Virus record (IMG/VR): IMGVR_UViG_3300036766_000092
Coordinates: 1-26,307 of that record
Strand: one strand, 5' to 3'
Length of the DNA: 26,307 bases
DNA from: a virus
The translations under genes and the position numbers were made by a program. Shown piece by piece: positions 5,688 to 24,456 of the stretch. The notes under the pieces were generated by a model. That model did not search any database and had not been told where the DNA came from. It saw only the letters and a program-made list of their open reading frames with translations. Numbering within the stretch: the first letter of the stretch is position 1; every line of letters begins with the position of its first letter.

Positions 5688-5691
5688 GGTG

Positions 5692-6381: not shown

Positions 6382-6390
6382 TGCGCACCG

Positions 6391-7032: not shown

Positions 7033-7051
7033 GGTGATTCTCCTGTGCCGC

Positions 7052-9290: not shown

Positions 9291-9305
9291 GTGTGGTGTC
9301 CTGTG

Positions 9306-9317
9306 ATTTTGAACCAT
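9306..9317 (-). repeat. Dispersed 12-mer ATGGTTCAAAAT, exact, intergenic
   Basis: Non-coding copy in the 82-bp gap after the major capsid gene. It lies about eight bases downstream, in the transcript, of an 11-bp perfect hairpin and just before the AGGA of the next gene. Confidence 0.92.
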
Positions 9318-9325
9318 TTGGCGGG

Positions 9326-9357
9326 ACTGGGGCAGGTGCGTGGAATCCTGCCCCAGT
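9326..9357 (-). terminator. Strong hairpin after the major capsid gene
   Basis: ACTGGGGCAGG (9326-9336) pairs perfectly with CCTGCCCCAGT (9347-9357) around a 10-base loop. It lies 15 bases past the capsid stop codon. No T-run follows on the transcribed strand, so it is not a textbook intrinsic terminator. It could be a partial terminator or an mRNA-stabilising hairpin that separates the abundant capsid message from the genes that follow. A 12-mer copy lies just downstream. Confidence 0.6.
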
Positions 9358-9372
9358 GGGGTGCACCCAGAC

Positions 9373-10920: not shown

Positions 10921-10977
10921 GGTGATTCTCCGGTGTGTTGATGATCAAATTTCAGTGGGTTGCCGTTGTTTTTTGAA

Positions 10978-11997: not shown

Positions 11998-12035
11998 GTG
12001 GTTGCTCCTGATGGCCTGTGGCCTGTGGTTGGTGA

Positions 12036-12839
12036 TTATTTTTTGTGAAATGCGTCACGATAGTGTGCCTGCGCTGCGGTGCGGTGTGATTCTGCCGCCT
12101 GATGGTGTGCCCGTCCCTGAGATTCACCCTTGCCGCCACGGATGTTGTCAAAGTTGGAGTGTGCGGCCTCACGGTGCGCCTTCTCTGCGTTCATGTGTTG
12201 GTTGTATGCCTCAGCGCTGAGCCGCTTCTGGTCATCCCTGTTTGATGAATTTCTTGCAGCGGTTGTTGCCGCGTTAGCTTTTTCAGATGCCGTCCGCGCT
12301 GCGTTGGTTGCCGCGCCCGCACTCTCATGCTTGGCCGCTGCATCCCTGCGCCCGGTTGCCGCAGTGTCCTTGCCGGATTGCCGCCGCGTCAGCTCTTGCT
12401 GATAAGTTGATGCCTCATCAGCTTTGCGGCCAGCATAGGCCCCATTGCCGGGGATGGTGTCGGCAGAGCGGGCTGCATTGCGTGCATCTGTGATGGAGCT
12501 GCGCAGGGCCTCATCTGACATCTGGTGCGCCCTCTCCTCCCAGTTTTTGAAGTCACCAGCGGTGGCGTGCTCACTGGTGCGGCCAACCTGCGGGCCCTCA
12601 TCATGGTGCCCAGAGCCGCCGCTGGGGTGAGCACCACTGCCTGCCGCATATCGGCCAGAGCCCTTGCCACCCTTGGCCACGCTGGGAATCAAGGATTTTG
12701 AACCCTCGCCAGCGGGGGGCTTGCCGGGCTCAATGCCCCAGCCAGCGGCGGGGTCAACGGGGCCCTTGCCCTGAGCCTCCCGCATTTCCGGGCTGTCAAC
12801 TTCAGCTTGGTTGAATTCAGATTCAGCGTAGGTGGTCAT
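12036..12839 (-). CDS. Low-complexity head-region protein with GGxGSGRY motif
   Basis: A 267-aa protein between the protease fusion and the scaffold-like gene. The N-terminal 55 residues are disordered. Then comes SKSLIPSVAKGGKGSGRYAA, a Gly-rich motif closely matching one in the upstream protease protein. Residues 95-267 are Ala/His/Glu-rich and strongly helical, with repeated patterns such as HHQAAESHRTAAQAHYRDAF, probably coiled coil. The function is unknown. Its location and the shared motif suggest a capsid-internal or assembly protein. The motif encoding GSKS is a one-mismatch copy of the dispersed 12-mer. The start ATG has AAGAGA at Shine-Dalgarno distance. Confidence 0.6.
   Translation of the reverse strand: MTTYAESEFNQAEVDSPEMREAQGKGPVDPAAGWGIEPGKPPAGEGSKSLIPSVAKGGKGSGRYAAGSGAHPSGGSGHHDEGPQVGRTSEHATAGDFKNWEERAHQMSDEALRSSITDARNAARSADTIPGNGAYAGRKADEASTYQQELTRRQSGKDTAATGRRDAAAKHESAGAATNAARTASEKANAATTAARNSSNRDDQKRLSAEAYNQHMNAEKAHREAAHSNFDNIRGGKGESQGRAHHQAAESHRTAAQAHYRDAFHKK
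12695..12706 (-). repeat. Dispersed 12-mer, near copy (AGGGTTCAAAAT)
   Basis: One mismatch at position 2; the core GGTTCAAAAT is intact. It is in the GSK frame (EGSKS) immediately before the SLIP-GSGRY module. Confidence 0.6.
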
Positions 12840-12848
12840 GTGTGTCTC

Positions 12849-14468
12849 TTAAAAGCGCCCCTTGAATGTGCCGTTGGTCACGCGGTGAAAAATTTTCATC
12901 ACATGGGAATCATACACCTTGCCAGAGCGGATGCCGCCAATGGTTTCAGCCACAAACTCATGGCCATCGCTGGTGGCATACCAACTGACATGCCGGGCGA
13001 TGTGTTCCTTCTCCTCTGGTGTGATGCGCTGCCTGCCCATGCCCCTCCAGCCCTGCGGGTCAGCCCGCCAGTGTGCCTCATGGCCCAGCTCATGCGCCAT
13101 CGGGTTGCCCTGTGCCCAGAATCCAGAGGCCAGCGCCTTATCCCTTTCGGCAATATACGCCCGTGGGCCATACTTGCCGTTGGCAACAATGTGACTGTCT
13201 GGGCCCATCTTCTGGTGAAAGTGCGCCTGAGCAGCTTTGCCAAAGCCACGCGGCATCTTGCCTGAGCTGAATCCACCGGGGGGAATTGGGTCACCGTTGG
13301 CCATGGCGGTGGCGATGGCCCGGTCTGCATCAGCACGGACATGCGGGGCCACATTCTCTGTCAGCTTGTGGGCAGCGTCCAGATGCTCTTGGGTGGGCTG
13401 CTTGCTGGGCAGTGAGCCACCAGCAGGGTCTGCGGGCCCCAGTCCTGCTGGCACTGGGCTGCTGACACCACCGGGGATGATTGATGGCTCCCGCGTGCCG
13501 GGGGCCGGTGCGTTGACAGGTGGTGATGGCGCAGGAGTAGGCTCTGGGGGCGGTGGCGGTGCCGGTGGGGGCGCTGGGGCGGGAGTTGGGGCTGGAGTTG
13601 GTGCCGGTGGCTTGGGGGTCTTCCCAGCCTCTGCATCGCGCTTGGCACGCCGCGCCGCTGATCTGCCGGGCCTGCCGCCTGAGCCGGGTGGGTAGCGGCC
13701 TGAGCCAGCGCCGCCGTGCTCAATCGCAACTTCAGGGACAAGGGACTTGAAGACCATCTGGCCTTGATTTTGAACCATTCCCACATGCTGGGGGACAAGG
13801 GACTTGGTGACCGGCTTGGGGGGTGATGAGATGGCCCCGGCTGCGCCGCCCTTGACCACCTGCGCAACTCTGGGGATGAGCATGGCCCCGCCAACATTTT
13901 TGAAGATGCCAAAGCTGGCCACGGCAGCGCTCAGGGACTTGGCCACTGCGTGCTGAATCTTGCCAACTTCACTGGGGGCATATGCGGCATCCATGGGGCG
14001 GGTGAACGCCACATGCTCGAAGTTGCCGCTGAGCAAGTAGCGTGTGGCACCGCCAGCCTGCGGGTCATAGCGCAGCTCTGTCACAGGCTTTTGATTGAGC
14101 CCAATGGAGCACTGGGCCTCATAGCCCTTGCCAACTTGGCTGATGACCATGCCTGTCAGCGGGTGCTGGGTGTCCAGCCAGAAGTCCACATACAGCTCAC
14201 GCCCTGCGGGTGTGCTGACAATTTCGCCGTCAAATGAGTTGCCCATGGGGAATGAGCTGTGATGATTTTCCAGCAGCATCACCTTGCCAGAGCGGGCCTG
14301 CTCAAGCATTGAGTCAAGCAAGTCATCAGCAATCCGGTCACCAACCTGATCACGCTGGGTGCCGCTGACATGCAGGCGAATTGTCGGGGCCCCGTCATGC
14401 GGGGTGGACTTTGTGATCTTGCCTGACGGGCAGGCAATCAGAGTGATGCGCATGTCGGGGGAAATCAT
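12849..14468 (-). CDS. Prohead protease fused to an HExxH zincin-like domain
   Basis: A 539-aa protein with two apparent protease domains. Residues 1-175 resemble HK97-type (S78-like) prohead proteases: ENHHSSFPMG supplies a candidate His70 and EAQCSIGL a candidate Ser121, and the block ends near LSGNFEHVAFTRP. These proteases process scaffold and capsid proteins inside the prohead. Residues 215-370 are a disordered linker with KSLVP twice, HGGAGSGRYPPGSG and a long Pro/Ala tract. The C-terminal domain has MAHELGHEAH (His459, Glu460, His463) and, 41-45 residues on, EFVAET (Glu504 and Glu508), a layout like gluzincin or anthrax-lethal-factor-type metallopeptidases. Its substrate is unknown. 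The start ATG overlaps a small upstream ORF as ATGA; ATG at 14453 is an alternative. Neither has a strong ribosome-binding site. Confidence 0.75.
   Translation of the reverse strand: MISPDMRITLIACPSGKITKSTPHDGAPTIRLHVSGTQRDQVGDRIADDLLDSMLEQARSGKVMLLENHHSSFPMGNSFDGEIVSTPAGRELYVDFWLDTQHPLTGMVISQVGKGYEAQCSIGLNQKPVTELRYDPQAGGATRYLLSGNFEHVAFTRPMDAAYAPSEVGKIQHAVAKSLSAAVASFGIFKNVGGAMLIPRVAQVVKGGAAGAISSPPKPVTKSLVPQHVGMVQNQGQMVFKSLVPEVAIEHGGAGSGRYPPGSGGRPGRSAARRAKRDAEAGKTPKPPAPTPAPTPAPAPPPAPPPPPEPTPAPSPPVNAPAPGTREPSIIPGGVSSPVPAGLGPADPAGGSLPSKQPTQEHLDAAHKLTENVAPHVRADADRAIATAMANGDPIPPGGFSSGKMPRGFGKAAQAHFHQKMGPDSHIVANGKYGPRAYIAERDKALASGFWAQGNPMAHELGHEAHWRADPQGWRGMGRQRITPEEKEHIARHVSWYATSDGHEFVAETIGGIRSGKVYDSHVMKIFHRVTNGTFKGRF
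13735..13806 (-). repeat. 15-bp direct repeats flanking a 12-mer copy
   Basis: GGGACAAGGGACTTG on the plus strand occurs at 13735-13749 and 13792-13806, 57 bp (19 codons) apart and in frame. Each copy encodes KSLVP. The 12-mer at 13767-13778 sits between them. This could be the scar of a short tandem duplication. Confidence 0.85.
13767..13778 (-). repeat. Dispersed 12-mer ATGGTTCAAAAT, exact
   Basis: MVQN frame in the linker of the protease-zincin fusion, between the two KSLVP direct repeats. Confidence 0.92.
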
Positions 14469-14698
14469 AGCATGATCATCAGAGCACCACTACCTGTAGT
14501 GGCATCGGCACGCGCACCACTACCGGTAGTGCCACTACAGGTAGTGGCATTGGTCACCACCCCCTGCATCTTGCGTCTTGACAGAGTTGCTGGACAGGAG
14601 CCACAATTCTCATCTGGGCTGGGCCGGGGCGCGGGGCCGGTGAACCGGCTGACGGCATCAGGCATCAGGCGGGTGGATGGGTGGTCACTCAGTGTCAT
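14465..14698 (-). CDS. Small ORF with palindrome-encoded TTGSGA repeats
   Basis: A 77-codon ORF, MTLSDHPSTRLMPDAV..., filling what would otherwise be a 216-bp gap between the MuF-like and protease genes. Its ATG overlaps the end of the MuF-like gene by 14 bases, and its TGA overlaps the protease ATG as ATGA. That overlap fits the gene-coupling style of this genome and is the main reason to believe it. The C-terminal third is Thr/Gly/Ser repeats (TTGSGA), which result from three DNA palindromes. It has a CGSC motif but no recognisable domain. The alternative is a non-coding structured spacer. Confidence 0.45.
   Translation of the reverse strand: MTLSDHPSTRLMPDAVSRFTGPAPRPSPDENCGSCPATLSRRKMQGVVTNATTCSGTTGSGARADATTGSGALMIML
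14487..14548. repeat. Three-palindrome array CCACTACnnGTAGTGG
   Basis: Three related dyads: 14487-14502 (centre CT), 14518-14531 (a perfect 14-bp palindrome, centre CGG/CCG region) and 14531-14548 (8-bp arms, centre AG). Their centres are 30 and 15 bp apart. The first and third are also inverted copies of one another, so a 16-bp stem could form between them. The array lies about 20-80 bp before the protease start codon. It could be an operator cluster for a dimeric repressor, an RNA structure controlling protease translation, or a recombination site. Confidence 0.85.
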
Positions 14699-15290
14699 CA
14701 CCAAAGTCATCCTCCAGATCACTGCCCACATCGGACTCGAGCCCGTCTGGGTCACCCTCACCGGCCTCCTCATCGCCCTCATATGCTTCAGGGTAGCAGC
14801 GGCAGTTGGGGTGCTGCACGGGATTGTCCATGAAGTCACTGATGTCCATGATCTCACCGTCCAGCTCGAGGCACTCATCACAGGCATCCAGTGCCGCCAT
14901 CCAGCGGATTTTGTCCCAGCCATTGCTGCCCAGCTTGGCCGCTATGGAGCTGTTCATCAGGTTGGCTGTCTCGGTGCGGGCAATGCGCAGCGCACGCATC
15001 GCGCCAAACTCAGGGAACAGCAGCTCCTGCAAGTCACTGACCTTGCGTGTGTCACCGGCCATGGCCATCCACTCATTGACCAGCTCAGCCACCTTTGACC
15101 GGGCCTCTGGGGAACTGATGGTCATGTCCTGCAACTGCTTGGCCTGCAATCTGGCAGTGCGCCGCAGCGATTGCTCAACATCCTCTGGCAGCTCTGCCAT
15201 GGGCACTTCACCGCTCATCTCATCAGCAAAGTCCATGCCCTCCCTGATGGCATCATAGTAATACTGCTCCAGCAGCAGGTCAGCGGGCAT
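14685..15290 (-). CDS. MuF-like minor head protein
   Basis: A 201-aa protein of the phage Mu gpF / SPP1 gp7 family, minor capsid proteins that act with the portal during head assembly and DNA ejection. The family signature is clear: ARTETAN (about residues 104-110), then WMAALDACDECLELDG with a CxxC pair (C137, C140), then HPNCRC (H160, C163, C165), which probably completes a metal site. The C-terminus is very acidic. I chose the ATG at 15290 (MPADLLLEQYYY) because it overlaps the upstream stop as TGATG and has GGTGAG upstream. A 12-residue extension is possible but would overlap the previous gene. No toxin domain is attached. Confidence 0.88.
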   Translation of the reverse strand: MPADLLLEQYYYDAIREGMDFADEMSGEVPMAELPEDVEQSLRRTARLQAKQLQDMTISSPEARSKVAELVNEWMAMAGDTRKVSDLQELLFPEFGAMRALRIARTETANLMNSSIAAKLGSNGWDKIRWMAALDACDECLELDGEIMDISDFMDNPVQHPNCRCYPEAYEGDEEAGEGDPDGLESDVGSDLEDDFGDDTE

Positions 15291-15505
15291 CAGCTCACCG
15301 CGTGCCTGATGAGTGCATAGAAGCATGGCTCACAATACGGGCCAGCGCCACGGAAGTGAGCGGTGCAATTATTCTGCGGCTGATCACACAGGATGCAGTT
15401 GAACGCCGTGCGCTTCACCGGGTCATGTGGCCCTTGCACGGTGCTGGACAGGCCGGGGACTTTCTCCCATGCCTCAAGCGCCGCAGTGAGCTGATCAGTG
15501 TGCAC
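15290..15505 (-). CDS. Small zinc-knuckle protein between portal and MuF
   Basis: A 71-aa protein, GTG start, overlapping the portal gene by 11 bases and the MuF-like gene by one base (TGATG). It contains CILCDQPQNNCTAHFRGAGP followed by YCEPC, two CxxC-type pairs that suggest one bound zinc. The N-terminal 30 residues are helical. The function is unknown, but the tight position inside the portal-MuF pair suggests a role in head assembly or a regulator co-expressed with it. Confidence 0.7.
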   Translation of the reverse strand: MHTDQLTAALEAWEKVPGLSSTVQGPHDPVKRTAFNCILCDQPQNNCTAHFRGAGPYCEPCFYALIRHAVS

Positions 15506-17144
15506 CAGTCACCTTGAGGCCCCTGCGCTGGGCCTGCTCCACAGCCTCTTTGATCACGCGGGCCCGCTCACGCTGGAGCATGGGCTGGACTCCCTTGATC
15601 ATCTTGGCCGCAACTCTGGACTTGGCGCTGACTGACTTGAGCGCGATGGTCTTGCGATTTGCGGCAGAGGGCAGCGCCAGCGGGGCACCAGCCGGGGCCA
15701 TCTTGAGCTGTTTGTCCGGGCGTTGATTTTGAACCATTCCAGCGGCACCGGCAGGCTTGGCCGCAACACCGGGAATGATCTGGGCATCAGCGACCTTGCC
15801 GGGGGTGGTGTCATCGGCCTCTGGCTCACCCTCCTCCTCAGTCTCAATGCCTAGCTCTTTGCGCCCCTCCTCCCAGCTCATCAGCGCCTTGCCGTCTGGA
15901 GTTGCGGTGGTGCACAGCAGCAGCACGCCCTTGGTGGCTTTCTCTGAATAATCACGGGGCTGACGGAAGACCATCTTGAACTCAGGCGCACCAGCCGCAC
16001 GCAGCAATTCCTTCCACATGCCCTCAATGGCAGTGAGCGTGCCCCTGAAATTTTTGTTGGCAAGGATGGACAGCTCCTCTGCGGTGGCCCGGTTTGTCTC
16101 GGTGACAAAGAGTGACGGGGGCACGCCGAACTGCACGCACAGCAGGCGCACCAGCCACTCAGGCAGCTCACGGTTGAATGAGTAGGACTTGACCGGCTTG
16201 ACATCCTTGATGCCGGGGGGCATCTGGAAGATGCGCCGCCGCGCTGCGGTCATGCCGGTGATCTCATCCAACATGATCTGATACTGGGCAATCTGTTCCT
16301 CTTTTTTGCCCTTGACATAATCGGTATCCATCAGCGCCACAGACTCAGGGATATTGCCCTCGCTGAACCACAGCTGCTCATATGCGTTGGTGGAGCTGAG
16401 CCGCGCCATGGTGGACAGAATCTCCTCCACCCTGCTTTCACCATAGCTGCACCAGACACGCGGCCTGAATGGGTAATACACCAGCTCACTCTGCGCCAGC
16501 GCCGCGTATGGCCTGCCGTGGATGTATTGGATGTAGGCCACATCAGGGGGCATTGGCCTGCCGCCCTTGATGCCGATGATGGGCTTGATGGTCTGCCCGT
16601 CAATGAGCTGCCACGCGATGAAGTCACCGCCCTTGCTGAAAAGCGGGAACACGCTGGTGGCATCGGTCACCACCATCTCACGCAACTGGGCACGCATCCA
16701 CTGCCGCCAGCCCCAGCCCACAGTGGGGTCAGGGACATCCATCAGCCTGCGGAATTTGTCCAGCTTGATCTGGTCATAGCTGCCCTTGTGCTCATCCTCA
16801 ATCACCAGCTCATATGGCGTGGCAAGGATGTCTTCAATGAACTGGTTGGAGGCAATGCGGGCCTCATCATTGAGATTGAAGAAAGCATGGAGATGGAAGA
16901 AAGTGGGCAGATAGTTGAACTCGGTGCGGGGTTGGAAGTTGGCGTTGAGATTGTATTCATAATCAAATAGGCGGGGATTTTCAGCCGCCGTGTCAGGCAT
17001 CACCACGGGCCTGCCGGGGCCCGGCATCTGGTCGCCGTCAAACTGCTTGGAAGTCTCAGTGGGTGCGGTGCGCTGCTCTGGGTGGCGGGCCAGCAGCAGA
17101 CGCGCCCGGTCAAGCAATGAGATGGCTGAGTCACGCAGGGTCAT
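15495..17144 (-). CDS. Portal protein
   Basis: A 549-aa protein forming the dodecameric ring at the capsid vertex through which DNA enters and leaves. I chose MTLRDSAISLLDRARLLL, since GGAG precedes it by seven bases and it overlaps the terminase gene by 14 bases. Characteristic portal segments are visible: PYELVIEDEHKGSYDQIKLD, WRQWMRAQLREMVVTDATSV, ELVYYPFRPRVWCSYGESRV and LLCVQFGVPPSLFVTETNRA. The C-terminal 110 residues are an acidic then Ala/Pro-rich linker, including one 12-mer-encoded MVQN, followed by a basic helical tail (VQPMLQRERARVIKEAVEQA). Position between large terminase and MuF is canonical. Confidence 0.92.
   Translation of the reverse strand: MTLRDSAISLLDRARLLLARHPEQRTAPTETSKQFDGDQMPGPGRPVVMPDTAAENPRLFDYEYNLNANFQPRTEFNYLPTFFHLHAFFNLNDEARIASNQFIEDILATPYELVIEDEHKGSYDQIKLDKFRRLMDVPDPTVGWGWRQWMRAQLREMVVTDATSVFPLFSKGGDFIAWQLIDGQTIKPIIGIKGGRPMPPDVAYIQYIHGRPYAALAQSELVYYPFRPRVWCSYGESRVEEILSTMARLSSTNAYEQLWFSEGNIPESVALMDTDYVKGKKEEQIAQYQIMLDEITGMTAARRRIFQMPPGIKDVKPVKSYSFNRELPEWLVRLLCVQFGVPPSLFVTETNRATAEELSILANKNFRGTLTAIEGMWKELLRAAGAPEFKMVFRQPRDYSEKATKGVLLLCTTATPDGKALMSWEEGRKELGIETEEEGEPEADDTTPGKVADAQIIPGVAAKPAGAAGMVQNQRPDKQLKMAPAGAPLALPSAANRKTIALKSVSAKSRVAAKMIKGVQPMLQRERARVIKEAVEQAQRRGLKVTGAH
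15726..15737 (-). repeat. Dispersed 12-mer ATGGTTCAAAAT, exact
   Basis: MVQN frame in the low-complexity C-terminal linker of the portal protein. Its flanks (GA before, CA after) are identical to those of the copy in the protease fusion. Confidence 0.92.
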
Positions 17145-18660
17145 TTGGGGCTCCAGTTTTGTGTGCTGCTTCACGCAGAATTTTAGCATAGAGCGCCGGG
17201 TCAAAGTCATTGAGCGCGGGCACGCAGGTCAGCACCACGGCATCACCAGAGTCAGGTGACCGGCCAATGCGCTTGTGGATGTCAGCCTTGGACTCAATGA
17301 AGATGCGCCCACCACGCGCCTCAAACTTGGGTGAAGTCAGGTCTGTGAATAGCTCAGGGTCAGGTGGAATCTCTGGGGGCTCCTCACCGTCAGCCAGCTC
17401 ACGGTCTGGGTCAAGCAGCTCCCTGAAGCGCCAGTATGCCAGCGCCCTGATGTTGCCAAAGCCCATGCTGCCGCTCATGTCGGTCTCATCAGTGCCCTCA
17501 CTGAATGTGATGCCGTGCACCAGACTGCGCACGCCAGCCGCGTCTGCGGCCTCCAGCGTTGCAAGGCCCACGCCGATGGCATCAACATTGGCGTTGAATC
17601 CCTTGGCCAGCCATGGCAGGAATTGCTTGAGGCAGTCTTTGCCAGTGGGGGTCTGTGCGCCCGGGGTCTTGTCCAGCTCATCAAACCAGTTGCCGTGCCG
17701 CCGCGCCACCACCGTCTGGTCACGCCCGCCAGCAGCCACATCCACACCCAGTTGGCCAGCGCCCAGATCACCAGTGCGGGGTTTCCACCTGTCCATGGCG
17801 GCACGCAGCCAGCGCCGGGGGATGACTTGGTATGCGTCCTCAATCAGGCCCACTTTCCAGTCACCGTGAAGTTGCTGTGACCTGAAGGGCTCAGACAGCG
17901 CCTGAAGTTGCGCCCGGTAGAGCTTGCTCACATGCGGGTTGTCACTGACCTGTGCCGGGATGTAGGTGCGGGACAGGGGCAGCAGCACTTCACCGTCATG
18001 GTCAACAGGCTCAGGGCCCGGCACTTCAGTGTCTTTGTCATTGATGCGAACATACCACCGCAGCTCACCGGGCTTGGCCGGGTTGGGGTGGGACTCATTC
18101 AACCACGCGCCCCAGCGCTCCATCACCCAGTCATTGCCCAGCCCACCGGGGTTGGTGCACGCCACAGACCGGCAGCGCTGGTTGTTGCCAGAGCGCAGTG
18201 AGCGCCTGAGCCCCAGATACTGGCCCAGCGTGAACTGGGTGACCTCATCAAAGCCTATCAGGTCATATTCCGTGGACAGGTAGATGCCGATGGAGTCTTC
18301 ATGCTGCACATGGCCAAACTGGAAGACCTGCCCATCTGGCCAGCGCCATGCGTGGTCAGAGCGGTTGAAGTATTTGTGCGCCTGCCCAAAGCGCTCAATG
18401 CTGCGCTCAATCAGCGTGGTCTTGAGCATGGCGTAGGTGCGCCGCACCGCCAGCGTGCGCCTGTGCTTGCGCCTGCCCATGGCCAGCAGCAGCTCGGACT
18501 TGCCACCACCCGCAGCGCCGCCATACAGCAGCTCATCAGCCTCAGACTCCATGGCCTGCCTCTGCCGGGGGGTGGGCTCCCAGTCTGGCAGTGCCGCTGA
18601 TTTGCCCGTCACAATCTGGCCAATGTCTTTGAAGAAAGTCACCCGCAGGTCATCGGCCAT
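17131..18660 (-). CDS. terL: Terminase large subunit
   Basis: The 509-aa packaging motor and nuclease. The Walker A loop is YGGAAGGGKS (Lys54). An adenine- or arginine-finger-like RRTYAMLKTT follows. Walker B with the catalytic acid is YDLIGFDE (Asp138, Glu139). The C-terminal RNase-H-like nuclease domain starts at LGVDVAAGGRDQTVV, with further acidic residues near the end (SGDAVVL). The length is normal. It overlaps the small terminase stop as TGATG and the portal start by 14 bases, so terS-terL-portal is a single translational chain. Confidence 0.96.
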   Translation of the reverse strand: MADDLRVTFFKDIGQIVTGKSAALPDWEPTPRQRQAMESEADELLYGGAAGGGKSELLLAMGRRKHRRTLAVRRTYAMLKTTLIERSIERFGQAHKYFNRSDHAWRWPDGQVFQFGHVQHEDSIGIYLSTEYDLIGFDEVTQFTLGQYLGLRRSLRSGNNQRCRSVACTNPGGLGNDWVMERWGAWLNESHPNPAKPGELRWYVRINDKDTEVPGPEPVDHDGEVLLPLSRTYIPAQVSDNPHVSKLYRAQLQALSEPFRSQQLHGDWKVGLIEDAYQVIPRRWLRAAMDRWKPRTGDLGAGQLGVDVAAGGRDQTVVARRHGNWFDELDKTPGAQTPTGKDCLKQFLPWLAKGFNANVDAIGVGLATLEAADAAGVRSLVHGITFSEGTDETDMSGSMGFGNIRALAYWRFRELLDPDRELADGEEPPEIPPDPELFTDLTSPKFEARGGRIFIESKADIHKRIGRSPDSGDAVVLTCVPALNDFDPALYAKILREAAHKTGAPNDPA

Positions 18661-19295
18661 CAGTTGATTGCCTCTGGTGTTGCCATCATGCGCTCCAGCT
18701 CGGTGGCGATGCGCTCACGGGCAGCGGGGTCAGTCACTTCACGCCTGATCAGGTTGCCGATGCGCACAGCCATTGCGCCCAGCTCATCCGGCCTGATGGC
18801 CTGTGACAGCTCAAGGGTGCGCTTGTGCTCATGGGTGGCTTGGTCACGCCGGTCTTTGACCACATCACGCAGCTCACGCCATGCCTGTTCCTCATCAACT
18901 CCAGAGTTGATGACCTCACCGATGATGTCCAGCGCCTTGGCCAGCCGGGTCATGTCTTGGGCCTCGCGCGCCTCAAGCATGGCCTGCCACTCAGCCTTGA
19001 GCCGCATCCAGAGCCGGGTGCTGCCGCCCTCATCCAGCCGCTCCACCAGCTTGTCCAGCCGGGCATCCAGCAGCGCCAGATCACGCCTGTGGCTCAGCAC
19101 CTGTGGGTCAGAGTCACCAGCCTTGATGCGCTCCCTGATGTAGTCGGGCACCGCCTTGGAATAGTAGCCTGTTTTCCATCTGGGGTGCGTGGGCCCAGCC
19201 GCTGGTGATTTGCCGCCGTGGATTCTGCACCGGCCATTGGGCATAGCGGGGGCCCTGCACAGGGTGCCATTCCGCCTCTTTGCGCCGCAATCCAT
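18660..19295 (-). CDS. terS: Terminase small subunit-like protein
   Basis: A 211-aa protein immediately before terL. The N-terminus CGAKRRNGTLCRAPAMPNGR...CRIHGGKS is the Cys-rich HGG motif common in phage small terminases and terminase-adjacent proteins; C3, C13, C23 and H26 could bind zinc. AGPTHPRWKTGYYSKAVPDY follows. The remainder is helical and charged, with a C-terminus (IRREVTDPAARERIATELER) that could oligomerise or contact TerL. Its role would be recognising the phage genome for packaging. Assignment rests on the motif and on the adjacent terL. Confidence 0.75.
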   Translation of the reverse strand: MDCGAKRRNGTLCRAPAMPNGRCRIHGGKSPAAGPTHPRWKTGYYSKAVPDYIRERIKAGDSDPQVLSHRRDLALLDARLDKLVERLDEGGSTRLWMRLKAEWQAMLEAREAQDMTRLAKALDIIGEVINSGVDEEQAWRELRDVVKDRRDQATHEHKRTLELSQAIRPDELGAMAVRIGNLIRREVTDPAARERIATELERMMATPEAIN

Positions 19296-19305
19296 GGGGG
19301 TTGCC

Positions 19306-19623
19306 TCAGTCCTTGGGGCTTGCTGCGGGTTTGCTTGCCGCTTGCTTGCCCTTTGTCACATGGGCCTGCCAGCCAGAGTGTGCCGCATTGATGCCCAGCA
19401 GCACTGTGACAAGCGCGGTGAGGCCATCTGGCAGGTGGAGCTGGGTGATCACGCCAGCGCTGTCCTTGAGGGGCAGCATGGTCTGGATGATGGCCCAGCA
19501 GCATGTCAGCACCAGTGTGGAGATACAGAAGTTTTTGCCGGGGGCCAGCCATTCAATGATTGAGCCGCCCTTCTGGGCCCAGCCCCATGGAAGCTGGTCG
19601 TGTCTTGTGGTGTGTGAAGTCAT
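19306..19623 (-). CDS. Small membrane protein, holin-like
   Basis: A 105-aa protein with two hydrophobic segments, NFCISTLVLTCCWAIIQTML (about 31-50) and PDGLTALVTVLLGINAAHSG (about 65-84), then a Lys/Ala/Ser-rich tail. This is the topology of a class II holin with a charged C-terminus. It precedes the small terminase and is separated from the endolysin, so it could instead be an antiholin or an unrelated membrane protein. AGGAG lies eight bases before the ATG. That AGGAG can pair with CTCCTG upstream, placing the only inverted copy of the dispersed 12-mer in the loop. Confidence 0.65.
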   Translation of the reverse strand: MTSHTTRHDQLPWGWAQKGGSIIEWLAPGKNFCISTLVLTCCWAIIQTMLPLKDSAGVITQLHLPDGLTALVTVLLGINAAHSGWQAHVTKGKQAASKPAASPKD

Positions 19624-19630
19624 CTGACTG

Positions 19631-19657
19631 CTCCTGTGGATGGTTCAAAATCAGGAG
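19631..19657 (-). promoter_or_regulatory. Potential RBS-masking hairpin in the leader of the holin-like gene
   Basis: In the transcript CTCCTG (19657-19652) can pair with CAGGAG (19636-19631), which contains the Shine-Dalgarno of the gene starting at 19623. The 15-base loop contains the inverted 12-mer. Closing the six-base-pair stem would hide the ribosome-binding site. A 6-bp stem with a 15-base loop is only moderately stable, so it could plausibly be switched by a protein or a pairing RNA. Confidence 0.5.
19640..19651 (+). repeat. Dispersed 12-mer ATGGTTCAAAAT, exact; only inverted copy
   Basis: The single exact copy on the plus strand, opposite to transcription, in a 40-bp gap. The mRNA here reads AUUUUGAACCAU, the exact complement of the other copies. 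Confidence 0.92.
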
Positions 19658-19663
19658 GGGGGT

Positions 19664-19876
19664 TTATCGGACTCCTCCCGGTGAGTGCCCATCCGGCCTG
19701 CTTGGGTTGCCGGGACTGGAGCCCCACCCACACATTTTGAACCATTCGCCGGGGGTTGGGGGGGCCTTGGCCTTCAAGTCGCACTTGGCGCAACTCCAGC
19801 TGCCCCTCACCCGGTCAACCAGTGACAGGCGCTCAAGGCAGTCCAGACAGTGCGTGAACCTGATCTGGGCAGTCAT
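19664..19876 (-). CDS. Small zinc-ribbon protein
   Basis: A 70-aa protein, MTAQIRFTHCLDCLERL..., with two CxxC pairs (CLDC and CAKC) 20 residues apart, as in a zinc ribbon. A Gly/Pro/Ser-rich tail follows. No Shine-Dalgarno precedes the ATG at 19876, and a GATAAT sequence ends about eight bases before it, so the gene may be leaderless or weakly translated. A longer version from a GTG at 19957 would cover part of the intergenic region and looks less natural. An exact 12-mer lies in the tail in the WFK frame. The function is unknown. Confidence 0.55.
   Translation of the reverse strand: MTAQIRFTHCLDCLERLSLVDRVRGSWSCAKCDLKAKAPPTPGEWFKMCGWGSSPGNPSRPDGHSPGGVR
19734..19745 (-). repeat. Dispersed 12-mer ATGGTTCAAAAT, exact
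   Basis: Read as E-WFK-M in the zinc-ribbon gene. This is the only exact copy in this frame, and it shows that the conserved element is the DNA and not a peptide. Confidence 0.92.
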
Positions 19877-19964
19877 GGCATAATTATCCGGGCCCGCTGG
19901 GAGTCTCTGGTGCCAGCTTTCCAGCAGACAGGGTTGCAACCACCCAACCGGGCCCACATCATTT
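19877..19964. other. Part of the longest confidently non-coding gap
   Basis: With the adjoining repeats this forms a 120-bp gap between the holin-like gene and the zinc-ribbon gene. It holds two CCGGGCCC copies (19888-19895, 19948-19955), a 10-bp palindrome GGTTGCAACC (19932-19941) and, on the minus strand, GATAAT just before the next ATG. I see no good -35 element, so a promoter is possible but unproven. Confidence 0.45.
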
Positions 19965-19997
19965 TGCTTGAATCTTGCTTGAGCATTGCTTGACCGT
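19965..19997. repeat. Iteron-like array II: three tandem 11-mers
   Basis: TGCTTGAATCT, TGCTTGAGCAT and TGCTTGACCGT follow one another with no gap on the plus strand, an 11-bp period close to one helical turn. The first unit with its flanks (19961-19980) is identical over 20 bp to part of the array in the replication gene at 25107-25126. This implies a shared binding protein. The array is intergenic except for its last base. Confidence 0.8.
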
Positions 19998-20200
19998 CAG
20001 TGGTTGAGCCTCTTGATCTCCCGCCGCAGCAGCCAGATGCGCCCCAGCAGGTAGCCGATGCACGCGCCCGGTGCCCACGGCTTGAACCAGCCCAGCGTGG
20101 CCATCAGGTAGGCGCTGCACCCAGCCGCCACATCCCATGTGAACGGGTGGCCCAGCGAATACGCCCAGACCGCCTTGAGGATTGCCATAATTTTTTTCAT
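19997..20200 (-). CDS. Small membrane protein, holin candidate
   Basis: A 67-aa protein, MKKIMAILKAVWAYSL..., whose ATG overlaps the upstream stop as ATGA, with CACAGGAG nine bases before the ATG. It has a hydrophobic stretch around WDVAAGCSAYLMATLGWF, a second around GACIGYLLGRIWLL, and a basic C-terminus (RREIKRLNH). The pairing with the preceding XhlA-like gene suggests a two-component holin. Topology and context are the only evidence. Confidence 0.6.
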   Translation of the reverse strand: MKKIMAILKAVWAYSLGHPFTWDVAAGCSAYLMATLGWFKPWAPGACIGYLLGRIWLLRREIKRLNH

Positions 20201-20499
20201 TGCTTTGCTCCTGTGATTAAATTCCACAGCTCATTGCCCTTGGACAGCACGCCGGTCACGCCAGCGCCCACTACAGCGCTCAGGCCCAGCACGCGCCACT
20301 TCAGTGCGTCATGCTTTTTGCTCAGGTCATCCAGCGCACGCAGCACGGCCTCATTGTTGGTCTTGTTGATGGCGGTGTGCTCATCCATCTTGCCGGTGAG
20401 ATGGGTGAGCCCTACTTCCACGCGCACCAGCCGCTCAGCGTCTTCAATCTGACGCAGCAGTGCACGGGAGTCACGCAGGTTGGGCTTGGGGCTTGGCAT
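20197..20499 (-). CDS. XhlA-like membrane-anchored coiled-coil protein
   Basis: A 100-aa protein with a charged helical N-terminus (RDSRALLRQIEDAERLVRVE; VLRALDDLSKKHDALKWR) and one C-terminal membrane segment (VLGLSAVVGAGVTGVL). This is the layout of XhlA/haemolysin-type proteins, which assist holins. Its ATG is overlapped by an exact 12-mer (ATGGTTCAAA-ATG), which takes the place of the usual CACAGGAG ribosome-binding site. It is coupled to the next small membrane protein by ATGA. Confidence 0.6.
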   Translation of the reverse strand: MPSPKPNLRDSRALLRQIEDAERLVRVEVGLTHLTGKMDEHTAINKTNNEAVLRALDDLSKKHDALKWRVLGLSAVVGAGVTGVLSKGNELWNLITGAKQ

Positions 20500-20509
20500 T
20501 TTGAACCAT
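20498..20509 (-). repeat. Dispersed 12-mer ATGGTTCAAAAT, exact, on a start codon
   Basis: Lies between the thaumatin-like stop and the XhlA-like start; the last two bases of the copy are the first two of the ATG. The leader reads GGATGGTTCAAAATG, nearly the same as at the 82-aa zinc-ribbon gene near 23848. Confidence 0.92.
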
Positions 20510-20514
20510 CCAGC

Positions 20515-21117
20515 TCAGCGCAGGAACATCTGGACAGCAGAGCCGCCGCCCATCACGCTGCCCTGCCACTGGCACGGCACCTTGGGGTGATACTGGTCTG
20601 GGCCAGCCTTGCACCCGGTCTTGCCCGGTGTCATGCCGCACGGTGGCCGCTGACGCGCCACACAGATGTCACAGCCCATGGGGTAGAGCCCAAACACCCG
20701 CTCATTGCCCATGGGGCCTCTGGGTGGGCCCAGCTTGGTGGCCCCAATGTCAATTTCAATTTTGTTGGAGTATCCATCCACCAGACTGACATCAGCGATG
20801 TCATACCAGTTGGGATTGTTGAGATTGACTTCAGCCTTGGTGGTGTTGCAGGTCACCGGGGCCCCAAAGCTGATGGTGGCATTGAGATACTGCCCCAGCA
20901 GCGGCATTGCCTGCGTGGCACCAGCGGCCAGTGGGAACTGGCAGTTGAGCCGGGTGGTGGTGGGACAGAATGACCAGTTGGTGATTGCCGAGTCAGCGCC
21001 AAACGCGATGAAGACCACCGTGGGGGATTTTGAACCATTGGTGATGGACAGGGTGCTGGTGCCAGCCTTGGTCATGGTGGCGGTCAGCAGCAGGGACAGC
21101 AGCAGGGCTTTGAACAT
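20515..21117 (-). CDS. Secreted thaumatin-like protein
   Basis: A 200-aa protein with a clear signal peptide, MFKALLLSLLLTATMTKA, followed by a thaumatin-like domain. The match is in pattern. The N-terminal strand TLSITNGSKSPTVVFIAF corresponds to the opening strand of thaumatins. TKAEVNLN followed by YDIADVSLVDGY corresponds to their family signature (F-D-x-S-x-V-D-G-[FY]). There are eight cysteines (51, 59, 90, 149, 152, 160, 169, 182), which could form four disulfides in the periplasm. Plant members bind or cut beta-glucans and act in defence; phage members are uncommon. I chose the ATG at 21117 because AGGAG lies seven bases upstream. ATG at 21132, overlapping the previous stop as ATGA, would add five residues. 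It sits in the lysis region, so an envelope role is likely. Confidence 0.65.
   Translation of the reverse strand: MFKALLLSLLLTATMTKAGTSTLSITNGSKSPTVVFIAFGADSAITNWSFCPTTTRLNCQFPLAAGATQAMPLLGQYLNATISFGAPVTCNTTKAEVNLNNPNWYDIADVSLVDGYSNKIEIDIGATKLGPPRGPMGNERVFGLYPMGCDICVARQRPPCGMTPGKTGCKAGPDQYHPKVPCQWQGSVMGGGSAVQMFLR
21027..21038 (-). repeat. Dispersed 12-mer ATGGTTCAAAAT, exact
   Basis: GSK frame (NGSKS) in the first strand of the mature thaumatin-like protein. Confidence 0.92.
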
Positions 21118-21128
21118 TGAAGGGCTCC

Positions 21129-21395
21129 TCATTTGGCGCAGGGTGTGAATTGCTTTCTCAGTTGCTGATTCTCGCCAATGAGTTGGTCAACCGTGTTGAC
21201 ATAGCACCGAGCCACATCCGCGTCTGGTGCGTCAGCAGGCAGCGTCTGGATGCACAGGATGACTTGGGGTGGCAGCGGGCCACATGCAGCCACCGCGCCC
21301 ACAGTGGTGATGGGCTTTTTGCCGCAGCCAAAGGCCAGCAGCCACAGCGTGGCCATCAGCCAAGTCTTGCCGGTGCGGAAGCGGGTTAGCCTCAT
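21129..21395 (-). CDS. Small lipoprotein, o-spanin candidate
   Basis: An 88-aa protein. The start MRLTRFRTGKTWLM overlaps the preceding tiny gene as ATGA. A basic N-region and hydrophobic stretch lead to the lipobox LLAFGC (lipidated Cys24). The mature part has a Pro-containing segment (CGPLPPQVILC) and a helical end (TVDQLIGENQQLRKQF). Outer-membrane spanin subunits are short lipoproteins, and an i-spanin candidate lies 430 bp upstream. Most Rz1-like genes are nested in or overlap Rz, so the separation is unusual and the function is tentative. It is coupled by ATGA overlap to a possible start of the thaumatin-like gene. Confidence 0.6.
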   Translation of the reverse strand: MRLTRFRTGKTWLMATLWLLAFGCGKKPITTVGAVAACGPLPPQVILCIQTLPADAPDADVARCYVNTVDQLIGENQQLRKQFTPCAK

Positions 21396-21505
21396 CGCAC
21401 CACCGCAAAATCCTTCCAGCAGGCCGGACAGGCCCAGCGCAATGACCAAGCATTGCCCCAAGCTCGAAGGTCTCTGGTTTCCTTACCACACCCACCACAG
21501 ATCAC
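21392..21505 (-). CDS. 37-aa zinc-finger micro-protein
   Basis: A tiny ORF beginning GTG-ATC-TGT: MICGGCGKETRDLRAWGNAW then SLRWACPACWKDFAVVR. Two CxxC pairs (CGGC, CPAC) 20 residues apart make a convincing single zinc ribbon. The GTG overlaps the upstream stop as GTGA and the TGA overlaps the downstream start as ATGA, so both ends match the junction style of this genome. Function unknown; DNA, RNA or protein binding is possible. Confidence 0.7.
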   Translation of the reverse strand: MICGGCGKETRDLRAWGNAWSLRWACPACWKDFAVVR

Positions 21506-21714
21506 TGGAAAATCTCCGCCTCAGTCTGAGGGCCAAAGCCAAGCGCCGCACGCAGCCTGTTGCGCCTGTCCACCGTGATGAATCTGTTGCCCTGATCAAC
21601 AAACACGCTGCGATGACTTTTTGCCTTTGCGCCGCGCCGCACTCTGGCCTTCGCCCGATTAAATCGGCGTGGCCTGTGTAGGTCGTAGATTGAATACGGG
21701 TAGCTCTGCTTCAC
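21502..21714 (-). CDS. Small basic protein
   Basis: A 70-aa protein with a GTG start overlapping the previous stop as GTGA; AGGAGG lies eight bases upstream. It is very basic (FNRAKARVRRGAKAKSHRSV) with a short strand pattern (RFITVDRRNRLRAAL) and an acidic end. The composition suggests nucleic-acid binding, but I recognise no family. Confidence 0.65.
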   Translation of the reverse strand: MKQSYPYSIYDLHRPRRFNRAKARVRRGAKAKSHRSVFVDQGNRFITVDRRNRLRAALGFGPQTEAEIFQ

Positions 21715-21830
21715 TGGAAGACCTCCTGCTTGCGATGAGACACCATCACCGGCACCCGCTGATCTTCAGCCCATTTCTGAGCGCACTCCCAAGCCATGAA
21801 GTCGCTCTGCTTGTCATCAAATTCACTCAT
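21711..21830 (-). CDS. 39-aa micro-protein
   Basis: MSEFDDKQSDFMAWECAQKW then AEDQRVPVMVSHRKQEVFQ. Both ends overlap neighbours (ATGA with the i-spanin candidate, GTGA with the basic protein), and its last codons carry the AGGAGG of the next gene. It is soluble and acidic in the N-terminal half. No function is recognised. Confidence 0.65.
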   Translation of the reverse strand: MSEFDDKQSDFMAWECAQKWAEDQRVPVMVSHRKQEVFQ

Positions 21831-22168
21831 TGAATCACCTGTGTCCTGTGCGCACTCAGGATGGGGGCACGCGCACGCTGAAAGTTGATGGCAGAGTCAC
21901 AACCGGGTGCAATGACAGCAGCATTGGTGTCGCGCATCCAGTTGGTGACCACCGTGGGCACCTTGGCCGCAGCCGCCTGCGCCAGATCACGCTGCTTTTT
22001 GAAGTCGTCTTGTTGCGCCTTGACTTCAGCCAGCACCGCCTCATCGGCCTTGATGCTGGCCTCCAGACTGCCGATTTTTTCAGCGTCTGCAACAGCCTGC
22101 ACATGCCGCCCGCCAAGGAACACGGCCAGCAGCAGCAAGATGGGGCCACCGATTTTGAGCCAGAGCAT
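21827..22168 (-). CDS. i-spanin (Rz-like) candidate
   Basis: A 113-aa protein with an N-terminal membrane anchor (LWLKIGGPILLLLAVFLGG) and a periplasmic coiled coil (KIGSLEASIKADEAVLAEVK, then AQQDDFKKQRDLAQAAAAKV). The C-terminal part has APGCDSAINFQRAR. Inner-membrane spanins have just this design and connect to an outer-membrane lipoprotein to fuse the membranes at lysis. Length is slightly short for Rz but acceptable. The start overlaps the previous stop as TAATG. Confidence 0.7.
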   Translation of the reverse strand: MLWLKIGGPILLLLAVFLGGRHVQAVADAEKIGSLEASIKADEAVLAEVKAQQDDFKKQRDLAQAAAAKVPTVVTNWMRDTNAAVIAPGCDSAINFQRARAPILSAHRTQVIQ

Positions 22169-22518
22169 TACAGCCTGACAATGATGCCCAGCGTCATCAG
22201 CATATCGCCAGTGGTGCCGCTGAATCTTGCAGCGGTGACGGGCAGATTGTTGAGGTTGCTGGTGTCAATCGCCTGACCGCTGATGGTGGTGAGGGGGTGG
22301 TAATCAGCCGTGCCATCATTGACCTGATCAATGGATGCCGTGGTCACTTCCACCGCCAGCGTGTCTTCCACCGTGCGGTTGACAACAATGGCATCAAACG
22401 GCCTGCCACCGGGGGCAATCCACACCAGCCAGTCATTCGCCGCAGCCGCGCCATCAAAGTATTGGATGCCGGGTGTGCCTGAGCTGGGGCGTGCGGGCAA
22501 GATTGTGGGTGCAGTCAT
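22168..22518 (-). CDS. Unknown 116-aa protein in the lysis region
   Basis: Starts MTAPTILPARPSSGTPGIQY with CACAGGAGACTCACCATG, a strong ribosome-binding site very like that of the capsid and tail tube genes, so expression may be high. The sequence is beta-rich and neutral (WLVWIAPGGRPFDAIVVNRT; SNLNNLPVTAARFSGTTGDM). No signal peptide or membrane segment is visible. It could be a small virion or envelope-related protein. I do not recognise it. Confidence 0.65.
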   Translation of the reverse strand: MTAPTILPARPSSGTPGIQYFDGAAAANDWLVWIAPGGRPFDAIVVNRTVEDTLAVEVTTASIDQVNDGTADYHPLTTISGQAIDTSNLNNLPVTAARFSGTTGDMLMTLGIIVRL

Positions 22519-22539
22519 GGTGAGTCTCCTGTGGTCAGT

Positions 22540-23010
22540 TTACAGCACGCGCACATATGTCATGGTGCCGTCAGATTGCCGGGTGGCACGCAGCGCCTGC
22601 CCACATTTTGAACCATCGCGGAAGGGTGCGCCCAGTGACAGGTGAATCCAGTCGGGCCTGCCCTCCAGAATCACCTGACCGAACAGGAGCCCGCTGTCCA
22701 GCCGCACCCAGTCAAAGACCGCCTCAAGGCCCACGCCAACCACATGAAAGTCAGCAGCCTCGCCCAGCAGGTGCTGACTGCTTGGCTGGCCTCCAACAAT
22801 TTTGTTGAGCGCCGGGGAGCGGTAGGCGGAATGAACAATCACAGGGGCGTTGAAGTGGTCGCGCACTGGCTCCAGCATGGTCATGGCCAGCGCCCGCAGT
22901 GCGTGCAGCACCTGATTGCTGCCACCAGCGGCCTGCTCATTGAGCACTTGCAGGGGCCTGACATCGGTGCGGGACAGCTCCTGCAAGCTGAAGTGGGGGC
23001 TGATCTGCAT
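22540..23010 (-). CDS. Endolysin, M15-type D,D/L,D-peptidase
   Basis: A 156-aa peptidoglycan peptidase of the VanY/peptidase M15A type that cuts peptide crosslinks in the cell wall at lysis. The zinc-binding pattern is visible: SAYRSPALN, then SSQHLLGEAADFHV (His80, Asp87, spaced H-x6-D) and DWIHLSL (His123). The N-terminal FSLQELSRTDVRP and LEPVRDHFNAPVIVHSAYRS match single-domain phage M15 enzymes. There is no signal peptide, so it needs a holin for export. An exact 12-mer near the C-terminus is read as DGSKC, after the last metal ligand. Confidence 0.9.
   Translation of the reverse strand: MQISPHFSLQELSRTDVRPLQVLNEQAAGGSNQVLHALRALAMTMLEPVRDHFNAPVIVHSAYRSPALNKIVGGQPSSQHLLGEAADFHVVGVGLEAVFDWVRLDSGLLFGQVILEGRPDWIHLSLGAPFRDGSKCGQALRATRQSDGTMTYVRVL
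22605..22616 (-). repeat. Dispersed 12-mer ATGGTTCAAAAT, exact
   Basis: GSK frame (DGSKC) near the C-terminus of the endolysin, beyond the catalytic core. Confidence 0.92.
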
Positions 23011-23019
23011 GGCGGGATT

Positions 23020-23142
23020 TTACACCCTGTTGGCGGTCAGATACCAGACCAGCAGCACCAGCGCCGCAAACAGCAGCAGGGCCCGTGGCCTGATCAGCCC
23101 CAGCACCAGCCCCCGGTATCCGATGAAAGCGATGAGTCTCAT
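23020..23142 (-). CDS. 40-aa membrane micro-protein
   Basis: MRLIAFIGYRGLVLGLIRPR then ALLLFAALVLLVWYLTANRV. One strongly hydrophobic span (about 21-35) with basic residues on the N-terminal side. The ATG overlaps the nuclease stop as ATGA and the gene ends ten bases before the endolysin start. Directly upstream of an endolysin, a peptide like this could be a pinholin, holin regulator or anchor. That is inference from position. Confidence 0.65.
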   Translation of the reverse strand: MRLIAFIGYRGLVLGLIRPRALLLFAALVLLVWYLTANRV

Positions 23143-23603
23143 TTTTTGTATAACCTGATCTCCTGCTCATGCAGCGCCGCAAAGAGTTTGTATGCCAAAT
23201 GCTGGGCAGAGTGCCTGTCCACCCAGCCCTTGGTGTCAGCGTATATGTGCTCCCACACACCGCCTGACACCAGCTCATCAAACTCAAAGTCCAGCCGGGG
23301 GGCGTATATGCGGCACCATTTTGAACCACCCGGCAGCTCACCCATGCAGCCGCACCAGCCACCGTCTGCTCTGGCATAGAGCTGGTGGGTGACCTGCCGC
23401 TGGATGTTTTGCACACGCCCGGCACGCTCCAGCAGGTGCAGGTCATCACAGGTGCCAGCCTCCATGCGGCTGTCATGCTTGTGGCCCTGCGCACAGGTGC
23501 AGGATTTTGTCAGCGATGAGCGCAACTGCGTGCCGGTCTTTGCCATCCAGCTCAGTTGCCGGGTGACCGCAGAGCGCTTGATCTGGGCCCTGCGCCTGAT
23601 CAT
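23139..23603 (-). CDS. DUF1064-like PDDEXK nuclease candidate
   Basis: A 154-aa protein. The core GHKHDSRMEAGTCDDLHLLE, then GRVQNIQRQVTHQLYA, IYAPRLDFEF and HIYADTKGW, has the order of DUF1064 proteins, which carry a PDDEXK nuclease fold like Holliday-junction resolvases. Candidate catalytic residues are Glu48, Asp105, Asp123 and Lys125. A Cys-rich insert (CTCAQGH, WCGCMG) adds possible zinc ligands. It probably processes recombination or replication intermediates, and it lies in the DNA-metabolism block. The start overlaps the previous stop as ATGA; Met20 (MAKTGTQ) is an alternative. Confidence 0.6.
   Translation of the reverse strand: MIRRRAQIKRSAVTRQLSWMAKTGTQLRSSLTKSCTCAQGHKHDSRMEAGTCDDLHLLERAGRVQNIQRQVTHQLYARADGGWCGCMGELPGGSKWCRIYAPRLDFEFDELVSGGVWEHIYADTKGWVDRHSAQHLAYKLFAALHEQEIRLYKK
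23318..23329 (-). repeat. Dispersed 12-mer, near copy (GTGGTTCAAAAT)
   Basis: Mismatch only at position 1, in the nuclease gene, GSK frame (GGSKW). Confidence 0.6.
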
Positions 23604-23848
23604 ATTGGCGCTCCACAGCCACGGCAGTTGGAAAGCTGGAGCGGGCCATGGTCATGCCGCCTGCCGCAATACTCGCACCACCGCTCCAGAGTCTTGACAT
23701 CGGTGACACCCGTGGCCCAGATCAGCCTGCGCCGGGGGATGATGCCCGCCATTGAATCAACCTCACCCTGCCACGCGCTGATCTGGGCCAGTCGCTGGGC
23801 GGACACAACCATCTCCACCGCCATCAGGGCAATCTGGTGGGGCATCAT
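23600..23848 (-). CDS. 82-aa zinc-ribbon protein
   Basis: Helical N-terminus (MMPHQIALMAVEMVVSAQRL), then ERWCEYCGRRHDHG and SNCRGCGAPI, two CxxC pairs forming a zinc ribbon of a type common in small phage proteins. Two adjacent ATGs follow an exact 12-mer, which overlaps both the upstream stop (ATGA) and this start. The 12-mer replaces the usual CACAGGAG leader. Function unknown; DNA or protein binding is likely. Confidence 0.65.
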   Translation of the reverse strand: MMPHQIALMAVEMVVSAQRLAQISAWQGEVDSMAGIIPRRRLIWATGVTDVKTLERWCEYCGRRHDHGPLQLSNCRGCGAPI

Positions 23849-24456
23849 TTTGAACCATCCCCGAACAGCCCGCCCTGAATGTCCCTGAAGCTGTGCTCAT
23901 GGCATCTGGGGCAGGTCTTGGTGCTGTGGTGCCGTCTCTGCGCCCTGTCACCATGGGTGGGTCTGGGGATGTGCTCGGTCAGATACCACGGCCTTGCTTT
24001 GTATTTTGAACCAGCCACCGGGACATCAGCCACACCGGGGCCCACGGCATTGGCATCCCGCAGTGCACCCAGAGCGCTGGCCACTTGCTGCTCCTCAGCG
24101 CCGGTCAACAGCCGCAGCTCCTCTGCCGTGGCCCCAGAGGGCCCCAACTTGGTCAGGGCCTCCAACACCCGCGCACGGACATCCAGCCGCGCCGTGGTGG
24201 CTCCCTGAGCCTCTGGGGGCCCATCGGGTGGAGTTGAGGGAGGGCCTGATGGCATCAGGTGATATTTTGCCACCCGCGCCACCGTGCCCTCCCGGCAGGT
24301 CACATCCACCATCTCAGTCCTGATCTGGTGGCCCTGTTCCTTCAGGTCAAAGACCGCAGCGGCCAGCCGCATGATGCCCAGCTTATTCAGGCACTCCAGC
24401 GGTGTCAGTGGCCCGCGCCGCAGCTCATTCAGCACTTTGTCATTACGCTTGCCCAT
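23845..24456 (-). CDS. Winged-helix DNA-binding protein with zinc-binding C-terminus
   Basis: A 203-aa protein. Residues about 3-50 (KVLNELRRGPLTPLECLNKL, GIMRLAAAVFDLKEQGHQI) match a helix-turn-helix module widespread in phages. A second winged-helix-like part lies at about 95-135 (RVLEALTKLGPSGATAEELR). The C-terminus has CPRCHEH. ATG at 24456 (MGKRNDK) was chosen, with GAGGG at good spacing. A possible TTG two codons earlier is less likely. It could be a replication accessory protein or transcription regulator. Its gene carries one near copy and one exact copy of the 12-mer, the latter at its stop codon. Confidence 0.65.
   Translation of the reverse strand: MGKRNDKVLNELRRGPLTPLECLNKLGIMRLAAAVFDLKEQGHQIRTEMVDVTCREGTVARVAKYHLMPSGPPSTPPDGPPEAQGATTARLDVRARVLEALTKLGPSGATAEELRLLTGAEEQQVASALGALRDANAVGPGVADVPVAGSKYKARPWYLTEHIPRPTHGDRAQRRHHSTKTCPRCHEHSFRDIQGGLFGDGSK
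23847..23858 (-). repeat. Dispersed 12-mer ATGGTTCAAAAT, exact, at a stop/start junction
   Basis: Encodes the last residues (DGSK) of the winged-helix protein; its final AT begins the ATG of the next gene. Confidence 0.92.
24003..24014 (-). repeat. Dispersed 12-mer, near copy (CTGGTTCAAAAT)
   Basis: Mismatch only at position 1, GSK frame (AGSKY). The rightmost copy; none is seen in the SSB/replication block to its right. Confidence 0.6.

Follow-up and report, generated by a model that had tools for sequence, protein, structure and literature searches.

We report a subfamily of phage proteins with a thaumatin-like fold, centred on a 200-residue open reading frame (ORF) on the minus strand, from 21117 down to 20515, of the 26,307-nucleotide (nt) IMG/VR virus record IMGVR_UViG_3300036766_000092, hereafter the window. 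Judged by sequence, this is a phage subfamily of a known fold that is new relative to the libraries searched. As the most probable of the readings considered, we tentatively propose that its members are late exported, envelope-anchored proteins whose target is the envelope of the host itself, at lysis or shortly before it. The gene and its parts are as follows:

20515-21117 (stop codon included), minus strand: predicted thaumatin-fold exported protein of 200 amino acids; sub-threshold Pfam match, viral homologues, AlphaFold2 (AF2) and fold search.
21061-21117, minus strand: predicted signal peptide of the Sec (type I) kind, spanning roughly residues 1-19, without a lipobox; sequence and lipobox scan.
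20763-20842, minus strand: signature TKAEVNLNNPNWYDIADVSLVDGYSN with invariant E96, D109 and D114; family alignment and profile comparison.
20569-20673, minus strand: C-terminal segment rich in cysteines, GCDICVARQRPPCG...GCKAG...VPCQ, which the family conserves and AF2 models with low confidence; alignment and AF2.

The ORF starts with the ATG at 21117 (a second in-frame ATG lies at 21132) and ends with the stop codon at 20517-20515. An initial annotation of the locus, which stated no strand, had listed a signal peptide, eight cysteines and a thaumatin signature, and all are present in this minus-strand frame. The N-terminus is the signal peptide MFKALLLSLLLTATMTKAG; the cysteines are C51, C59, C90, C149, C152, C160, C169 and C182; the signature reads YDIADVSLVDGY, and the protein was also read as carrying TTKAEVNLNNPNWYDIADVSLVDGY as its signature stretch. 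Taken alone, the protein scores 16.8 bits against the Pfam Thaumatin family (PF00314), below the gathering threshold of 27.4, and has no match in PHROGs. Since scores of 16-17 bits also arise sporadically in whole bacterial genomes, the single-sequence evidence for thaumatin is weak.

Homologues were found by scanning IMG/VR with degenerate DNA patterns back-translated from D[VI]SLVDG[YF], which succeeded where a mixed thaumatin alignment (A1) had been unsuccessful as search input. Among the 18 stretches obtained, 11 are close homologues and one (L109 7440-8288, on a 152-kb contig classed viral) is a thaumatin-like lipoprotein of the long classical type; it has 17 cysteines and falls outside the window protein's subfamily. 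A later profile search added one further contig and duplicates. With near-identical pairs counted once, the family comprises 12 viral lineages including the window. The 11 others are 44-58% identical to the window protein, and identity among members is 40-63% (mean 51%). The eight cysteines together with E96, D109 and D114 are invariant in all 12 lineages, the sole gap, at C182, being due to a sequence ended by a contig edge. Such retention of frame, identity and cysteines indicates that the ORF is more than a chance one.

Most members (11 of the 12) match PF00314 weakly, with a best E of 6.6e-5. Searches for the family in phages thus yielded 11 further viral lineages in IMG/VR and none in two other collections: PHROGs returned scattered weak matches only (best E 0.038) and no described phage family, and 50,697 GenBank phages gave no match to two different family members or to thaumatin itself. 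Used as a direct query, the window protein retrieved nothing from GenBank phages, IMG/VR or GTDB contigs, and plasmids gave chance-level matches only. Literature searches on phage or viral thaumatins gave no report of a phage thaumatin among the papers listed. Whole-genome sampling of bacteria was limited, and its negatives hold for the genomes searched: no family match was detected in 398 Pseudomonadota genomes or in 247 genomes from the phylum of an acidobacterial record, while three genomes out of 297 from another phylum carried remote relatives (L136, L137 and L138). Weak Burkholderiales matches (several of them interrupted by internal stop codons) and a pair of PF00314 matches at 16-17 bits were treated as noise and not inspected singly.

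The fold was predicted by AF2 with a 12-row alignment, giving a predicted local distance difference test score (pLDDT) of 73 and a predicted template modelling score (pTM) of 0.71; a single-sequence run (pLDDT 32) was discarded. Residues 21-130 are mostly well predicted, and the cysteine-rich segment in the C-terminal half has low confidence. The model contains the thaumatin beta-sandwich (domain I), and all 27 Foldseek matches in the PDB at E<0.001 are thaumatin folds. Upon structural re-alignment, 29 thaumatin-like entries scored Z 10.3-12.6, followed by GH64 glucanases at 8.4 and below; an aegerolysin-like fold (Z about 7.4) fell well under the thaumatin block and was set aside. Profile-profile comparison (hhalign) with four known thaumatin-like proteins (TLPs) gave 96.3% and E 1.6e-9, aligning E96, D109 and D114 with E89, D101 and K106 of thaumatin I, and the family profile matched only plant TLPs among PDB sequences (best E 0.0034). 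Because the fold search, the profile-profile comparison and the PDB profile matches agree, we regard the predicted assignment to the thaumatin-like superfamily, already proposed in the initial annotation, as sound.

The family shares with PF00314 TLPs such as plant PR-5 the fold across the mature protein (Z 12.6 with the small TLP TLXI, 3g7m; 12.3 with the bacterial 7p22), the T..E..LN...D.S..DG signature with its E and D positions, and predicted export with disulfides. Yet it has eight cysteines, compared with 16 conserved in typical PF00314 proteins and 10 in small TLPs (PMC3048497), and in the alignment of the 12 members none of the eight falls at the thaumatin Cys9 or Cys204 position. The family also differs in having no CxTGDCGG loop, in its own C-terminal cysteine-rich segment, in an identity of 12-19% in structural alignment and in falling below the Pfam cut-off. 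From the acidic-cleft set REDDD, three residues at cleft-type positions are kept (E96, D109 and D114), while the Arg and the fifth (last) Asp are not seen in the family alignment. Judging from these sequence features (a different cysteine number, an absent N-C terminal pair and an apparently incomplete REDDD), the family is not a typical PF00314 member. The eight cysteines of the initial annotation are indeed present and invariant, but their framework, lacking a Cys9-Cys204 counterpart, is not the classical one.

The protein may bind a glycan, and catalysis is possible but unsupported; a binder seems more likely than an enzyme. A hydrolase of the beta-1,3-glucanase type, cutting exopolysaccharide or envelope glycan, is in our view improbable. 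The GH64 beta-1,3-glucanases (3gd0, 7vtk) are the next fold matches after TLPs, sharing a related beta-sandwich core (Z 7.2-8.4), and the invariance of E96, D109 and D114 also speaks for this reading. However, REDDD appears incomplete, the domain is short and without the extra parts of the much larger GH64 enzymes (~370 residues), no convincing sequence match connects the two, and just two members match Pfam GH64, weakly (E 0.009 at best).

Plants, fungi, animals, certain bacteria and certain large viruses of eukaryotes are known to have TLPs. The viral thaumatins known in BFVD come from eukaryotic viruses; those of Feldmannia species virus, Tupanvirus and Satyrvirus are likewise thaumatin folds encoded by a virus, but they have other hosts, are longer and share 12-16% identity with the phage family. 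The remote bacterial relatives (L136 1453-2352, L138 1468-2190 and L137 1-1662) hold a related domain in which the E and D residues and a GV[FY]PxG...C segment are shared. Two of them are lipoproteins, and one carries DxDxDG repeats ahead of the domain. Their identity to phage members (mean 27%, maximum 33%) is well below the mean within the phage family. These proteins suggest that bacteria hold a broader set of thaumatin-like envelope proteins.

A lipobox was found in 10 of the 12 members, none with Asp at +2; L111 and the window copy have none, the latter carrying an ordinary signal peptide. In E. coli, lipoproteins without Asp at +2 are sorted to the outer membrane, and by this rule the ten lipobox members should reach it. 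A signal peptide disfavours a role as a virion part. It had also been suggested that the protein acts outside the host, as a released protein affecting eukaryotes of the habitat in the way plant PR-5 acts on fungi. Beyond the fold itself, this would fit the window copy, which would be soluble after signal cleavage. We nevertheless consider it very improbable, since the majority of members are predicted to be lipoproteins and so to stay on the producing cell; moreover, the cysteine framework is not the classical one, the REDDD set appears incomplete, and the gene sits among lysis or tail genes.

The neighbourhood of the gene in the window is that of a lysis region, as initially annotated, with an M15 endolysin and a weak Rz-like match just upstream. 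The relevant features are:

22540-23010, minus strand: M15-type endolysin (Pfam Peptidase_M15_3 2.6e-18; PHROG endolysin 6.8e-33).
21827-22168, minus strand: Rz-like (i-spanin-like) protein with one N-terminal transmembrane (TM) segment (weak PHROG Rz-like spanin match, E 0.049; hydrophobic segment 1-28).
21129-21395, minus strand: small lipoprotein, lipobox AFGC, possible o-spanin (sequence; no family match).
20197-20499, minus strand: downstream protein of 100 amino acids, role uncertain ('hemolysin'-type PHROG match only at E 0.18).
19997-20227, minus strand: protein of 76 amino acids (holin-type label unsupported by family match or hydropathy).
17131-18660, minus strand: terminase large subunit, marking the contig as a tailed phage (PHROG terminase 8.8e-42; phage tblastn matches).

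The order is thus M15 endolysin, Rz-like protein, small lipoprotein and thaumatin-fold gene, the endolysin lying ~1.4 kb upstream. The gene had been placed between a lipoprotein and holin-type genes: the upstream lipoprotein is present, but the holin-type label is weakly supported, hydropathy and family searches having given no clear hydrophobic segment and no convincing match for the 100- and 76-residue products. The terminase relatives obtained were either too distant or not long enough to reveal a syntenic thaumatin-fold gene, and no relatives of the window's major capsid were found.

Endolysins recur beside the gene in other lineages. In G811, an endolysin with peptidoglycan-binding and M15 matches ends 1 nt ahead of the thaumatin-fold gene, which is followed by a small membrane protein. 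The order in G813 is a CHAP-like endolysin (Pfam CHAP 20.5 bits, below the 26-bit cut-off), a single-TM protein of 94 amino acids, the thaumatin-fold gene, with which that protein's gene shares 1 nt, and an 84-residue membrane protein. This genome (L118/L133/L135, ~38.3 kb) is apparently complete and circular, since it has an exact 105-base-pair (bp) terminal repeat; the record break falls inside the thaumatin-fold gene. A GH25 endolysin lies about 1.2 kb upstream of the gene in G816. Overall, an endolysin is found within about 1.5 kb of the gene in four of seven readable lineages (the window, G811, G813 and G816), representing three chemistries (M15, CHAP and GH25). Under uniform placement such an outcome has a probability of about 0.001, a rough, post hoc figure, three of the seven lineages not having been searched for an endolysin elsewhere.

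The lysis-linked proposal would operate as follows. The thaumatin-fold protein would be made late, together with the lysis genes, and exported to the periplasm or outer membrane, where it would fold with disulfides. Its conserved face would bind an envelope component, probably a glycan, and this binding would help loosen the outer envelope so that progeny leave. Several observations weigh against it. The window copy has no lipobox, and the window already holds Rz-like and lipoprotein candidates. In G815, a patatin-like phospholipase is directly upstream of the gene, with tail genes including a tail fibre around it, and in G814 a BppU_N baseplate protein is directly upstream with a major head protein further on; no endolysin was seen nearby in either. 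The larger contigs G807, G808, G812 and G818 show no lysis link, several large contigs being viral by IMG/VR's own classing and not by hallmark genes. A link to the lysis genes, in line with the earlier suggestion of help in lysis, is backed by the neighbourhoods of G811, G813 and G816; two lineages adjoin tail genes instead.

In L120 (9099-9953), the gene for a patatin-like phospholipase runs into the start of the thaumatin-fold gene; tail genes and a homing endonuclease are adjacent.

In G814 and G815, the tail or receptor-binding genes next to the thaumatin-fold gene favour the main rival reading, that of a superinfection-exclusion or receptor-masking lipoprotein on the outer membrane, which would block the phage's own receptor via the receptor protein or a surface glycan and spare progeny from debris. 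Exclusion genes beside tail genes have precedents in llp of T5 and cor of T1 (PMC9586334, PMC13164509), also phage lipoproteins near tail or late genes. The lipoprotein signal in 10 members fits as well, and the variable neighbourhood would suit a mobile accessory gene. On the other hand, Llp and Cor are smaller and set apart by their descriptions, which do not report thaumatin folds; Cor acts early in infection; endolysins are the closest neighbours in four lineages; and no lipoprotein signal is predicted for the window copy. We regard this alternative as possible, if somewhat unlikely. The recurrence of endolysins of three chemistries as neighbours slightly favours a lysis accessory role over superinfection exclusion.

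A further reading, a moron of the lysogeny or surface-modification type that is expressed outside lysis and changes the host envelope, appears decidedly unlikely. Remote bacterial lipoprotein relatives exist, so phages could have acquired a host envelope gene, and homologues in very large contigs sit among unrelated small genes. The surrounding genes in the window, G811 and G813 are, however, co-directional with structural and lysis genes.

A more specific form of the lysis-linked proposal is that the protein represents a novel type of outer-envelope lysis factor, taking the o-spanin slot by the endolysin in G813- and G811-like phages and breaching the outer membrane or surface glycan layer unlike known spanins; this we consider unlikely. 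As with o-spanins (Rz1-type), a predicted lipoprotein is encoded in a lysis cassette; in G813 it comes after a single-TM protein, a position that fits. Unlike them, the phage family has a much larger globular disulfide-rich domain, and the window has separate spanin candidates next to its lipobox-free copy. A published survey lists 91 of 677 phages without an identified spanin (PMC6139136), and the thaumatin-fold family could help to test by what means phages of that kind open the outer membrane. A family with an invariant core in 12 viral lineages, four of them with endolysins of differing chemistry nearby, points to a common late envelope step.

The window also contains a repeated 12-bp sequence, ATGGTTCAAAAT (coding sense), with 16 occurrences at <=1 mismatch versus 0.07 expected. 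The sites span 5558 to 24014 (e.g. 6370-6381, 9036-9047, 20498-20509 and 21027-21038), and one copy lies inside the thaumatin-fold gene without an indel relative to homologues. When the repeat was used to look for the host, no enrichment was seen in 200 genomes from the family of one Comamonadaceae genome. Copies occur in all three reading frames (MVQN, xGSK and WFKM) and at gene starts, 15 of the 16 in one orientation; ATGGTTCAAAAT is an asymmetric dispersed DNA element, perhaps a site of the stoperator-like or promoter-like kind.
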